This document shows, piece by piece, positions 50,203 to 55,599 of a DNA stretch of 64,000 nt; within the stretch, counting starts at the first letter, position 1; the number at the start of each line of letters is the position of its first letter. Below the pieces are notes generated by a model, which made no database searches, was not told the origin of the DNA, and saw only the letters and a list, made by a program, of their open reading frames with translations. Origin of the DNA: Puniceicoccales bacterium Verruco_02 (GTDB lineage: Bacteria > Verrucomicrobiota > Verrucomicrobiia > Opitutales > Oceanipulchritudinaceae). The position numbers were made by a program, and so were the translations under genes. The stretch is from the NCBI GenBank assembly GCA_001604585.1, contig LVBW01000032.1, positions 1 through 64,000 on the forward strand, given 5' to 3'.

Positions 50203-51720
50203 CTAGTAGCTCTTGGCCCAGATAACGCGCTGCTTGCTCGGGCGGCCGCTGAAGGGACAGGTGCCTTCTTCGCTCGGCATGTTGAGCGGGATGCAGCGGA
50301 TTGTCACCTTGAGGTCGGCGCTGATTTTGTCCGCCACCTCGTCGGAACCGTCCCAGTGCGTGAAGGCAAATCCGCCGTGGATTTCCGGCTTGTCGGCGTT
50401 CTTCGCCGTGAAAAAGTCGTAGAACTCTTCCTTGGAGTCGATGCGGCGGATGTTGGAGTCGCGGAAGGCCTTGGCGCGCTCTAGCAGGGCGCGCTGCATG
50501 TCGTCGAGTATGGAGCCGACCTTTGCGACGAACTCCCCGCGGGGCAGCGTGGCCTTTTCCAGAGTGTCGCGGCGAGTGTAGAACACGCCGTTCGAGGCCA
50601 CGTCGCGGGGGCCGATTTCGATGCGGATCGGCAGGCCCTTCTTCACCCACTGCCATGCCTTTTCACCGCCGCGAATGTCGCGGTCGTCAATCTGCACTTC
50701 CAGCGTGCGGCCGTCCCATACGGTGGCCTTCAGCTCCGCCTTCAGGCTTTCGCAGTAGGCGAGCACTTCGGCGCGGCTGTCCTCCTTGGGCGTCACGGGC
50801 AGGATGACGATGTGGACGGGGGCCAGACGCGGAGGCACCACCATGCCGTTGTCGTCGCCGTGGGTCATTATCATGCCGCCGATAAGGCGAGTCGATACGC
50901 CCCAGCTCGTCGTCCATGCGTGCTCCTCCACACCCCTGTCGGAGAGGAATTTTATCCCGCTGGCCCTGGCGAAGTTCTGGCCAAGGAAGTGGCTGGTGCC
51001 CGCCTGAAGGGCTTTTTTGTCCTGCATCATGGCCTCGATGCAGAGTGTGGACACGGCACCGGGGAAGCGTTCACCGGCGGTCTTTTCGCCCTGAATGACG
51101 GGCATGGCCATCCAGTTTTCGGCAAAGTCGGCGTACACGGCCAGCATTTTGCGCGTTTCCTCCCATGCTTCTTCGGCTGTGGCGTGCGCTGTGTGGCCTT
51201 CCTGCCAGAGGAACTCTGCGGTGCGCAGGAACAGTCGGGTGCGCATTTCCCAGCGCACGACGTTGGCCCACTGGTTGATGAGGATGGGCAGATCGCGGTA
51301 GCTCTGCACCCACTTGGCGTACATTTCGCCGATGATGGTCTCCGATGTCGGGCGGACGATCAGGGGTTCGTCGAGGGGGCTGGCGGGGATGAGCTTGCCG
51401 TTGCCGTCGGCTTGCAGGCGACTGTGGGTGACAACGGCGCATTCCTTGGCGAAGCCTTCTACGTGGGCTGCCTCTTTTTCAAGGTAGCTGACGGGGATAA
51501 ACAGGGGGAAGTAGGCGTTTACGTGGCCGGTGTCCTTGAACTTCTTGTCCAGCGCGCGCTGGATGTTTTCCCACAGGGCGTAGCCCCAGGGTTTGATGAC
51601 CATGCAGCCGCGCACGGGGGAGTTTTCGGCCATGTCGGCGGCTTTGATGACTTGCTGATACCACTCCGGGTAGTCCTCGGAGCGGGTGGGCGTAATAGCG
51701 GTGCGTTCGGGCTTGGCCAT
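50203..51720 (-). CDS. proS: prolyl-tRNA synthetase, archaeal/eukaryotic-like type
   Basis: 505 aa. Class II core: motif 1 region PVRGCMVIKPWGYALWENIQ, motif 2 NQWANVVRWEMRTRLFLRTAEFLWQEGHTAHAT, motif 3 WGVSTRLIGGMIMTHGDDNG. An anticodon-binding domain (VHIVILPV) and the C-terminal zinc-like domain with the Tyr end (VIWAKSY) follow. It lacks the YbaK editing insertion of the standard bacterial enzyme and is the type shared with archaea and eukaryotes. It charges tRNA-Pro. Confidence 0.96.
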   Translation of the reverse strand: MAKPERTAITPTRSEDYPEWYQQVIKAADMAENSPVRGCMVIKPWGYALWENIQRALDKKFKDTGHVNAYFPLFIPVSYLEKEAAHVEGFAKECAVVTHSRLQADGNGKLIPASPLDEPLIVRPTSETIIGEMYAKWVQSYRDLPILINQWANVVRWEMRTRLFLRTAEFLWQEGHTAHATAEEAWEETRKMLAVYADFAENWMAMPVIQGEKTAGERFPGAVSTLCIEAMMQDKKALQAGTSHFLGQNFARASGIKFLSDRGVEEHAWTTSWGVSTRLIGGMIMTHGDDNGMVVPPRLAPVHIVILPVTPKEDSRAEVLAYCESLKAELKATVWDGRTLEVQIDDRDIRGGEKAWQWVKKGLPIRIEIGPRDVASNGVFYTRRDTLEKATLPRGEFVAKVGSILDDMQRALLERAKAFRDSNIRRIDSKEEFYDFFTAKNADKPEIHGGFAFTHWDGSDEVADKISADLKVTIRCIPLNMPSEEGTCPFSGRPSKQRVIWAKSY

Positions 51721-51884
51721 GTTGATGCGAGGGATGAAAAGGGGAACCGCGTGCGGGTGCAGCGGTGTTGGAAACCGAGGGATTGTGCCAGCTTTCCGGG
51801 GGCGCTCAAGAAAAAGCTGATTACGAAGCGGCGTTCGTCAATAAATGTTTTGCGTTTACGGCAAGCGCGAAGAAAATTATACAA

Positions 51885-52047
51885 GGCTACCACTAACAAC
51901 TGGTTTCGTCGCGAGAACGAGTATTTGCGGATGGATGGCAAGGCTTTGGAAGTGATTAGTAATGTATGAATTACGGCGAACTTCCAAAACGCAGCCATCC
52001 ACCGTAAAGGCCGTTCATAGCAGAAAACAAAGTTATTAGAGGAGGCC
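51885..52047 (+). mobile_element. 163-bp palindromic element, copy A
   Basis: Same length as copy B and differing at about 21 of 163 positions by eye. It begins GGCTACCACTAACAACT and ends AGTTATTAGAGGAGGCC, so its ends are imperfect inverted repeats, and most of the interior also folds back on itself (GGCAAGGCTTTGGAAGT against ACTTCCAAAACGCAGCC). It has no coding capacity, so it must be mobilised in trans. Flanks ACAA/AAAA resemble a decayed 4-bp duplication. It sits about 165 nt before the proS start, between that gene and the AT-rich hypothetical gene. Confidence 0.8.
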
Positions 52048-52062
52048 AAAAAAGGGAAGCGT

Positions 52063-52674
52063 ATGTGCTGGGAGTATCTGAAGTCAGTTGATGTAAGCGG
52101 GGAGGTGACGGCTATAGCGGCAGCAGTTACAGCTGGAGCTGCCGTTTTTGCCGTAATTATCGCGAAGAAACAGTTAAAGACTTGGCGAGAACAACTGATC
52201 GGCACGGAAAGACGAAAGCTCGCCGTTGACATGCATAAATCTGCACTCCGGTTTCAATTGGCCATCAGGCAATGCCGTTGTCCCGTTTATGAATGGTCAT
52301 TTCAAAAATTCGATGACGCATATTGGAAGATAATTCAGGAGGAGAGAGTCAAACCAGTGGAAGAGGCTTTCCAGAACTTGGTGGACAAGAGTCTCGATTT
52401 AACAGTGAATCTCAAACGAGACATGGACTCCACCCTTGAACCATTTAACAAATTGCGAACGGAATTGATCCTAGCCATTGGAACAGTTTTTCGTTCCGAA
52501 ATGCGACCCACTGAAGCGAATGATGGGAATGCCAACAATCATCACTCAAACAAAGTTGAACAGGCCAGATTAATCTGGAGAAGACCTCTTGAAACAGAGA
52601 ATACTGACGAGTATGGAGATCGCGTAAATTCTGCAGTTAATAACCTTGCAGAACAACTCAAAGATTTTATCTAA
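52063..52674 (+). CDS. hypothetical protein with N-terminal membrane helix
   Basis: 203 aa. One N-terminal hydrophobic segment (about residues 14-34, GEVTAIAAAVTAGAAVFAVIIA) is followed by a helical, charged cytoplasmic-type domain. Clearly AT-richer than the core genes. It starts 16 nt after palindromic element copy A and ends 24 nt before the left REP of the transposase unit. No family recognised; a single-pass anchor with a helical tail is all that can be said. Confidence 0.65.
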   Translation: MCWEYLKSVDVSGEVTAIAAAVTAGAAVFAVIIAKKQLKTWREQLIGTERRKLAVDMHKSALRFQLAIRQCRCPVYEWSFQKFDDAYWKIIQEERVKPVEEAFQNLVDKSLDLTVNLKRDMDSTLEPFNKLRTELILAIGTVFRSEMRPTEANDGNANNHHSNKVEQARLIWRRPLETENTDEYGDRVNSAVNNLAEQLKDFI

Positions 52675-52698
52675 CCGTGCATTTTTTACGTAATTTAA

Positions 52699-52760
52699 GC
52701 CACAACGTGGCGGCATGAGATAGCCCGCGGGTGGAGGCCTGTCAGGCCGGAACCCCGGGG
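52699..52760 (+). repeat. REP sequence, left flank of the transposase
   Basis: GCCACAACGTGGC hairpin followed by the GATAGCCCG...GGCC/GGCC-type palindromic block ending ACCCCGGGG. It is repeated inverted at 53491-53551 on the other side of the transposase, the usual pairing of REPs with a REP-associated tyrosine transposase. Confidence 0.75.
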
Positions 52761-52818
52761 TACACGCCTCACCACCCCACCCCCTCTTTTTTCCAAGCCC
52801 TGCAAGGGCGGCATCAGC

Positions 52819-53438
52819 ATGCCACAATCTCTTTCGCAAATCCTTCTCCACGTTGTGTTCTCCACAAAAAACCGCGAACCGTTCCTTACGGATGCATTCC
52901 GGGACGAATTGCACGCCATAATCGGTGGCATTGTGCGCGAACACGGCGGCACCTCGCTAGTGGCCGGTTCGGTCAGGGAACATATTCAGGACAGCTCTAA
53001 CAACTGGTTTCGTCGCGAGAACGAGGATTTGAGGATGGATGGCAAGGCTTTGGAAGTGAGTAGTATTGAATGAAATCCGGCGAACTTCCAAAACGAAGCC
53101 AGCCGCCGCATAGACCGTTCGTAGCAGAAATCAAAGTTGTTAGAGGTGGCCTTCATCTTCTCATCACACATCCACGAACGGAAACCCCGGCGGACATGAT
53201 GAAGAACATCAAGACGGGTTCGTCCATGTGGATAAACAAGCACGTCGCCACTCAGGGAGGGTTCCATTGGCAGGCTGGTTACGGCATGTTTTCCATAAGT
53301 CCCGCGCATCGTCCCGCATTGGAGAGATACATTTCGTCTCAGCACGATCACCATAAGCGCGTGACGTTTCAGGAGGAATACCGGCGTTTGTTGAAGAAAT
53401 ACGGCATGGAATACGACGAAAAATATGTGTGGGATTAG
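52819..53438 (+). pseudogene. REP-associated Y1 (IS200-like) transposase, broken by an insertion
   Basis: The N-terminal part (MPQSLSQILLHVVFSTKNRE, 52819-52988) and C-terminal part (LLITHPRTETPADMMKNIKT through HHKRVTFQEEYRRLLKKYG and DEKYVWD, 53156-53438) are one Y1_Tnp/RAYT protein interrupted by a 163-bp element at 52989-53151. Removing the element and one TTCA copy restores a 453-nt frame (150 aa) without stops. The junction codon becomes His, recreating GSVREHIHLLI, whose HIH is the HUH catalytic motif, so the insertion splits the active site. Inverted REPs flank the gene. The enzyme would nick and join single-stranded REP hairpins; this copy must be inactive. Confidence 0.9.
52989..53151 (+). 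mobile_element. 163-bp palindromic element, copy B, inside the transposase
   Basis: Ends are inverted repeats (GGACAGCTCTAACAACT / AGTTGTTAGAGGTGGCC). It is flanked by a perfect 4-bp target duplication, TTCA at 52985-52988 and 53152-53155. The interior folds back on itself, so the whole unit can form one long hairpin. It has no transposase of its own. Copy A lies 1.1 kb upstream in the same orientation. Confidence 0.9.
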
Positions 53439-53740
53439 GCCCATGCCGCCCCGTTGGGGCTTGGTGATAAAAAGGTGGGGGGACCGTATTTCCCGGGGTT
53501 CCGGCCTGACGGCCTCCACCCACGGGCTATCACATTGCGCCCCGTTGGGGCGTTGAAACAGGCTGTTGCCGGATTTGCGCCTCGCTTCCAAATCGTATGG
53601 GACTCCAAGAACGCAGCTCAATCGCCACTCGAATAATCCGCCGCAATCCACCACATCCACTTGCCAACGACTCTTCGCTTTCGCCCCCTTTGCCCCTTTT
53701 CGAGACTTGGTCTCTTTCCAGATTTGACAAATACGCTGCA
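53439..53740. other. intergenic stretch with REP units before sufS
   Basis: About 300 nt between the broken transposase and sufS. It contains two identical GCCCC-GTT-GGGGC hairpins (53448-53460, 53539-53551) around the right-hand REP. The rest (53560-53740) shows no gene; the tracked upstream extension of sufS into it is not protein-like. TTGACA at 53724 lies too close to the sufS start to be its -35 box. Confidence 0.6.
53491..53551 (-). repeat. REP sequence, right flank of the transposase
   Basis: Inverted copy of the left REP (CCCGGGGTTCCGGCC ... GGCCTCCACCC ... GGGCTATC), ending with a GCCCCGTTGGGGC hairpin. Confidence 0.75.
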
Positions 53741-55045
53741 ATGACCTTCCTGAAGGAAGAGGTGGAACACTTCGTGCATCCACCCATAGGGGGCACATAC
53801 ACAGTGGCAACACAGACACACACTTTCGACATCGAGGCCGTCCGGGGCGACTTCCCACTCATCATGCGGGAAGCACTGCGCAAGCCTCCCCTGTCCTACC
53901 TCGACAACGCCGCCAGCACCCAGAAACCTCAGACCGTCATCGACGCCCTCTCGAACTTCTACTCGCAGGACTACGCCAACATCCACCGCGGCGTGCACTT
54001 CCTGTCCCAGCGTGCCACAGACCTCTACGACAAGGCGCGCGAAACGGTGCGCCGCTTCCTCAACGCCCGCGAAAGCGCCGAATGCATCTTTCTGCGCGGC
54101 GCCACAGAGGGGGTGAACCTCGTGGCCAACTGTTACGCCAAGCCCCTCCTCTGCCGCCCCGGCGCGAACATCGTCATCACAACGATGGAACACCACGCCG
54201 ACATCGTCCCCTGGCAACTCGCGATGGAGGACACGGGCGCGCAGCTGCGCGTGGTCCCAATCGACGGACGCGGCGTGCTGGACGAGGAAGCCTTTGAAAA
54301 ACTTGTGGACGAAAACACGGTCATCGTCGGCCTCTCTTACGTCTCGAACGTCCTTGGCACCGTGAACCCGGCCGAGCGTCTTATTGCCGCTGCGCACGCC
54401 AAGGGCGTGCCAGTCCTGCTGGACGCTGCGCAGGCCGCCCCACATGTGGCGCTGGACGTACAGCAGCTAGGCTGCGATTTGCTCGTAATCTCCGGCCACA
54501 AGATCTACGGCCCAACGGGCATCGGCATACTCTACGGACGGCGCGAAATACTCGAAAAAATGCCCCCCTGGCAGGGCGGCGGCGACATGATCCTGCACGT
54601 CAGCTTCGCGGGCACCACTTACAAGGGAATACCCGACCGCTTCGAGGCGGGCACCCCGCACATCGCGGGCGCGATGGGCATCGCGGCGGCAATGAACTAC
54701 ATCGAGCGCATAGGCATAGGCGCAATCGCAGCGCACGAGCACGAGCTTCTCGAATACGCGAACGCCGCCGTGACGGATATTGCGCAACTGCGCGTCATAG
54801 GCACTGCTCCGGGCAAGGCAGGCGTACTGTCCTTCGTAATCGATGGGGTACACCCACACGACATCGGGACATTCTTGGACGCGGACGGCGTGGCTATCCG
54901 CGCCGGGCATCACTGTGCGGAACCGCTGATGAAGCATCTCGGCCTGCCTGGCACGGCAAGGGCGTCGTTTGGCATGTATAACACTTTCGAAGAGATAGAC
55001 CGTTTCGCAGCAAGTATCCGCAAGATCGTGAAGTTCTTCCTCTGA
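53741..55045 (+). CDS. sufS: cysteine desulfurase SufS
   Basis: 434 aa from ATG 53741; residues 1-28 precede the family start (FDIEAVRGDFPLI), and the tracked 53597 extension is rejected. PLP-dependent class V fold: SYLDNAASTQKP, IHRGVHFLSQRAT, the PLP Lys in VISGHKIYGPTGIG and the catalytic Cys in RAGHHCAEPLM. It removes sulfur from cysteine as a persulfide and passes it to SufU, encoded 107 nt downstream, for Fe-S assembly. sufBCD are not in the window; the gene is preceded by the REP-transposase unit. Confidence 0.96.
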   Translation: MTFLKEEVEHFVHPPIGGTYTVATQTHTFDIEAVRGDFPLIMREALRKPPLSYLDNAASTQKPQTVIDALSNFYSQDYANIHRGVHFLSQRATDLYDKARETVRRFLNARESAECIFLRGATEGVNLVANCYAKPLLCRPGANIVITTMEHHADIVPWQLAMEDTGAQLRVVPIDGRGVLDEEAFEKLVDENTVIVGLSYVSNVLGTVNPAERLIAAAHAKGVPVLLDAAQAAPHVALDVQQLGCDLLVISGHKIYGPTGIGILYGRREILEKMPPWQGGGDMILHVSFAGTTYKGIPDRFEAGTPHIAGAMGIAAAMNYIERIGIGAIAAHEHELLEYANAAVTDIAQLRVIGTAPGKAGVLSFVIDGVHPHDIGTFLDADGVAIRAGHHCAEPLMKHLGLPGTARASFGMYNTFEEIDRFAASIRKIVKFFL

Positions 55046-55152: not shown

Positions 55153-55599
55153 ATGAACGAGATGGAAGAGCTTTACCGGGAGATCATCCTGGACCACAAC
55201 AAGCGCCCGCGCAACTTTCGCAAGATGGAAGACTGCACCCATCACGCGGATGGGCACAACCCGCTCTGCGGCGACGAGATAGAGGTGTTCGTCAAGATCG
55301 AGGACGGGCGCATTGCCGACATCAGCTTTCAGGGCGAGGGCTGCGCCATTTCCAAGTCCAGCGCCTCGCTTATGACCAGCGCCCTCAAGGGCAAGACCCT
55401 CGAAGAGGCCCATCGCGAGGCAGGTATTGTAATTTCTATGCTCACGGGCAAGGGCGCGACTGCGGACGTGGAGGAACTTGGCGACATAGCCGCCCTTCAG
55501 GGCGTGCGCCAGTTCCCGGCCAGAGTCAAGTGCGCAACCCTGTCCTGGCACGCCTTGGAGGCGTCGCTCAAGGGCGAGGCCGGTACCAGCACCGAATAG
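55153..55599 (+). CDS. sufU: SufU-type sulfur carrier / Fe-S assembly protein
   Basis: 148 aa. IscU/SufU fold with the three zinc/cluster cysteines and the Asp: NPLCGDEI, GEGCAISKSSASLMT and RVKCATLSWHALE, plus the SufU-specific insertion between the second and third. It accepts persulfide sulfur from SufS through its zinc site. It is expected in organisms with a SufBCDSU-type system. Probably co-transcribed with sufS. Confidence 0.95.
   Translation: MNEMEELYREIILDHNKRPRNFRKMEDCTHHADGHNPLCGDEIEVFVKIEDGRIADISFQGEGCAISKSSASLMTSALKGKTLEEAHREAGIVISMLTGKGATADVEELGDIAALQGVRQFPARVKCATLSWHALEASLKGEAGTSTE

Follow-up and report, generated by a model that had tools for sequence, protein, structure and literature searches.

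The two 163-bp palindromic copies in the window, the 64,000-nucleotide stretch of DNA analysed here, are best explained as insertions of a non-autonomous MITE family moved by the transposase that is encoded on a 1245-bp insertion sequence (IS) of the IS5 family residing in the same genome, a reading to which we assign a probability of roughly 0.93. The family is an IS5-type MITE, previously undescribed, in a genus of uncultured Verrucomicrobiota. The kind itself is known, and a MITE that owes its spread to a larger mobile element's enzyme is an ordinary sort of element; less ordinary are the nested size classes and the compensatory changes all along the hairpin. It is from the ends common to MITE and IS, together with the length of the target duplication, that we infer the probable mover.

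A repeat search of the window places both copies in one direct-repeat family, with 87% identity, no gaps and a start-to-start spacing of 1104. The exact borders and this identity agree with what the sequence-only reading had described, namely two copies of 163 bp, about 87% identical. Copy A (51885-52047, plus strand) lies between proS, which starts at 51720 on the reverse strand, and an ORF of 203 aa (52063-52674) that begins 15 bp past the element and has no match in Pfam or NCBIfam. Its left terminal inverted repeat (51885-51901, plus strand) is GGCTACCACTAACAACT, and the right one (52031-52047, minus strand) reads GGCCTCCTCTAATAACT going inward; the flanks, ACAA at 51881-51884 and AAAA at 52048-52051, represent a degraded duplication matching at three of four positions. 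Copy B (52989-53151, plus strand) sits in a Y1 transposase gene and has the ends GGACAGCTCTAACAACT (52989-53005, plus strand) and, read inward, GGCCACCTCTAACAACT (53135-53151, minus strand). The perfect TTCA duplication ascribed to it earlier is indeed there, at 52985-52988 and 53152-53155. In both copies the 17-bp terminal inverted repeats are imperfect and have the core CTAACAACT; across the family the 17-bp end pattern is GGCCANCTCTAACAACT, and the subterminal sequence of the MITE is GGTTTCGTCGCGAGAACGAG / TTTGATTTCTGCTACGAACGG. The 163-bp element contains no gene, and what lies between its ends is an imperfect hairpin over the full length.

That further copies exist in the genome and in its relatives, as a small mobile family would have it, is now clear. 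With copy A as query, we found 15 matches in the genome of the window (G000), at least 15 in one congener (G001) and 52 in another (G002), all of these copy numbers being search-derived lower bounds. Occurrences of GGCCANCTCTAACAACT with up to two mismatches number 37, 36 and 99 in G000, G001 and G002, respectively, whereas reversing the pattern as a control gives 1, 0 and 6, and the two 17-bp ends of one copy are on average 88% identical (n = 38 copies). A further 52 genomes from the family and order gave no match to the MITE, nor did a plasmid search with copy A. In a class-wide sample of 286 genomes, which evidently did not include G001 and G002, it was found in G000 alone, pointing to a narrow distribution of the family.

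The target duplications go far beyond chance. Of 51 complete elements, whatever their size, 25 are flanked by a perfect duplication of exactly 4 bp, compared with a mean of 0.44 in offset controls, and none by a perfect duplication of 5 bp or longer; inspection of the flanks thus favours the 4-bp duplication that had been proposed from copy B. The symmetrised target has C at position -1 in 27 of 50 cases, T/A-rich (TWWA-like) positions 0-3 and G at +4, and can be written as C|TWWA|G-like. A short target duplication of 4 bp is characteristic of the IS5 subgroup. In the mechanism that we propose, an IS5-family transposase would bind the 17-bp terminal inverted repeats of the MITE, and DDE strand transfer would then put the MITE into such a site with a 4-bp stagger, leaving the 4-bp duplication.

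An autonomous IS with ends containing CTAACAACT, which the sequence-only reading had suggested looking for, does occur alongside the MITE in this genome, and its gene specifies a DDE transposase of the IS5 family. Two copies of 1245 bp, 88% identical to each other, have the same 17-bp ends as the MITE: one at G000:C51:1334-2578 (locus L056), with a degraded duplication, and the other at G000:C64:3055-4299 (locus L057), with ACAT on both flanks. Their proteins, 331 and 342 aa, are of intact length and match nearly the whole NF033581 model (IS5 family transposase) with 257 and 253 bits, the cut-off being 140; they also score above the cut-offs for Pfam DDE_Tnp_1 and DUF772. Similarity between MITE and IS is confined to the terminal 17-18 bp, and the subterminal sequence is not common to both. 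For this reason, we do not regard the MITE as a product of simple internal deletion within the 1245-bp IS. Such limited similarity fits mobilisation in trans through recognition of the ends, but does not show that the MITE descends from the IS.

Could the MITE instead have been moved by a second IS with the same ends, the 1245-bp IS being merely its relative? The abrupt stop of the similarity after 17-18 bp would be expected in that case, and G002, the genome richest in copies, gave no transposase match, although it is a fragmented draft. Moreover, contig ends of G001 carry a diverged IS whose left-end interior is slightly different. On the other hand, many bacterial MITEs have only their ends in common with their mover, for example those of the IS5 type in Porphyromonas gingivalis (PMC4596501), and the 1245-bp IS agrees with the MITE both in end sequence and in the length of its duplication (4 bp). 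We consider a second IS rather unlikely and regard the 1245-bp IS as the probable mover.

The site of copy B gives a view of the insertion that the sequence-only reading had overlooked. Copy B interrupts a Y1/IS200-type (RAYT-like) transposase gene (52819-53438, plus strand). Removal of the 163 bp and one TTCA restores a continuous frame of 150 codons, with an EHIHLL (HUH) motif at the junction. The first 56 and last 95 residues each match Y1_Tnp, the first half being borderline (22.9 bits versus a curated cut-off of 23), and both halves also match the NCBIfam IS200 model below its cut-off. The restored 150-aa protein aligns without gaps over the junction with solved IS200/IS605-type transposases, where DHVHLL corresponds to EHIHLL. 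Copy B thus landed in the catalytic HIH (HUH) motif, and its empty site can be read straight from the restored frame. The evidence for an empty site rests on this Y1 reading frame; for the G002 copy at locus L041 an orthologous empty site was not shown, as its two flanks lie apart in both G000 and G001.

The presence of a Y1 gene on the spot, together with the palindromic nature of the element, invites the thought that this is a REPIN/REP family moved by the very Y1 (RAYT) transposase whose gene copy B splits. REPINs are likewise dispersed and extragenic; however, they are pairs of short REP palindromes that move without target duplication, whereas the present family has terminal inverted repeats, 4-bp duplications and IS5-type ends. 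Y1 enzymes leave no target duplication, yet nearly half of the complete elements have a perfect one. The Y1 gene occurs once in G000 and is missing from both G001 and G002 despite the many copies of the MITE there. In addition, the Y1 unit has inverted ends of its own (52698-52731 on the minus strand and 53519-53552 on the plus strand), which are unrelated to those of the element. Taken together, the duplications, the unlike ends and the distribution make a Y1-moved REPIN family extremely unlikely; the Y1 gene did not move copy B but was disrupted by it. Accordingly, of the earlier description of the element as 'MITE-like or REPIN-like', moved in trans by a DDE transposase and not by a Y1 enzyme, the MITE and DDE parts hold, and 'REPIN-like' turned out to be wrong.

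The Y1 unit into which copy B inserted has inverted repeats of 41 nt at its borders, and these are weak matches to the Rfam family RF01687 (Acido-Lenti-1), with 23.6 bits against a gathering score of 37. Of 289 Verrucomicrobiota genomes, 82 contain RF01687, frequently as multiple copies that are dispersed or arranged in tandem runs and inverted pairs. Strong matches were found at 6 of the 20 Y1 loci scanned (L141, L142, L146, L147, L154 and L155). None of the 14 matches at Y1 loci is more than about 550 nt away from the gene, even though the loci reach up to 1.5 kb on each side. With one exception, strand goes with side, matches to one flank of the gene being on the minus strand and those to the other flank on the plus strand; further pairs occur, for example, at G247:C112, at G247:C39 and twice at G159:C11. 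This suggests that Acido-Lenti-1 may, at least here, be a REP-type end-repeat belonging to transposase units of the Y1 (RAYT-like) kind rather than a small RNA in its own right. Farther along the window, an ORF for a SufS-type cysteine desulfurase (53597-55045) is followed by one for a SufU-type protein (55153-55599); the desulfurase scores highest with the model for family 2A encapsulin cargo desulfurases, below its cut-off (598 versus 800 bits).

Another feature that had escaped the sequence-only reading is that the congeners harbor other size classes. Shared ends bound nested classes of 54-55, about 163, 210-218, about 250 and 1245 bp, of which the MITE classes (54-251 bp) have no transposase inside. 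The smallest elements (L061:443-496, L062:517-571, L063:365-418 and L064:447-500) consist of the two ends and a spacer of 20-21 bp. Since the one at L063 is flanked by a perfect TTTA duplication, even this minimal form appears to have been mobile. In the 210-250-bp classes, about 105-120 bp of the interior form a stretch in which several small hairpins (GGAGGGTGTAAACCCTCC and AAGGGCTTCGCCCTT among them) follow one another; longer variants from G002 include L065:474-683, L067:452-669, L068:393-607 and L049:1345-1595. The internal stretch has 39 matches in G002, many at positions bounded by the family ends, and only weak partial ones in G000 and G001.

Each 163-bp copy is one long imperfect hairpin. 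The self-complementary interior noted earlier is reflected in folding energies: copy A folded as RNA has a z-score of -7.9 and copy B folded as DNA one of -3.7, and in each case none of 200 shuffles folds as well. We analysed paired changes in 38 copies aligned by sequence only; the structure itself comes from these very sequences, and the events are modest in number. Changes on both sides were seen at 20 of 62 base pairs (62 cells), compared with 16 cells for shuffles and 6-16 for slid controls. On a maximum-likelihood tree, 19 branches carry a double change from one pair to another, versus 0-1 in slid controls, and 14 of these 19 fall outside the ends, where slid controls again give 0-1. The 14 changes outside the ends indicate that the interior, which need not bind the transposase, has been kept paired. 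Two explanations may account for this pairing. The folded strand may be under selection; alternatively, each arm may serve as a source for rewriting its partner by template switching, a process that can on its own give rise to paired changes in hairpins during replication (PMC8794818). It is only tentatively that we propose the broader statement, that the whole 163-bp hairpin, beyond the transposase-binding ends, stays paired through compensatory double changes, either because the folded strand matters for spread or for the host or because template switching rewrites the arms.

The same paired changes, with most of the double changes located outside the ends, might be taken to mean that the element is now a functional structured RNA or a regulatory hairpin (a terminator or an mRNA stabiliser) kept by the host, transposition being a thing of the past. 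Its surroundings could be read in this way too: of 39 elements with sufficient flank, 33 are extragenic, that is, not inside an ORF, with an ORF end within 150 nt, and 18 of them are next to a 3′ end. However, 3′ and 5′ neighborhoods are nearly equal (18 versus 15, using mechanical ORFs only); a preference for gene 3′ ends was sought and not found. No Rfam family scores above threshold for the element. Copies are present at many different sites, one of them destroying a gene, and those in G000 show the divergence or truncation to be expected of decaying mobile DNA. As template switching alone may also account for the paired changes, a host-kept RNA seems to us improbable, more so than a second IS, and a mobile MITE family remains the preferred interpretation.

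How does this family compare with known systems? IS5-family MITEs have been described in Porphyromonas gingivalis (BrickBuilt, MITE293 and MITE700) and in Neisseria meningitidis (ATR, with ISNme1 as the proposed parent) (PMC4596501). Like them, the present elements are short and gene-free, have no transposase remnant, and have the terminal inverted repeats of full-length IS5-family elements in the genome or of a proposed parent (PMC4596501). They differ in end sequence and in host phylum. The duplication is uniformly 4 bp in the present family, whereas in BrickBuilt its length varies (PMC4596501). Unlike the Porphyromonas and Neisseria MITEs, the present family forms one long hairpin over the whole element, with compensatory changes, and comes in several nested size classes. 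The partner IS conforms to the IS5 family (the NCBIfam NF033581 group) in its length of 1245 bp, a single DDE gene of 331-342 codons, inverted ends of about 17 bp and an AT-rich 4-bp duplication, but is set apart from other members by the end sequence GGCCANCTCTAACAACT. The nearest other copy that a scan of genome contigs with the transposase gave is from the congener 'Puniceicoccales bacterium Verruco_01'; it is 87% identical at the protein level and partial at a contig end.

Overall, our results document an IS5-type MITE family along with its probable mover, target site and empty site in uncultured Verrucomicrobiota, in which few have been described. The nested size classes show that such elements gain and lose interiors while retaining their ends. 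With their paired changes along the full hairpin, the diverged copies form a series that could serve to ask which process, template switching or selection, maintains the pairing of long palindromes. If the hairpin is indeed kept paired throughout, either its folded form would be important to spreading or to the host, or the family would represent a natural record of template switching within palindromes in bacteria.
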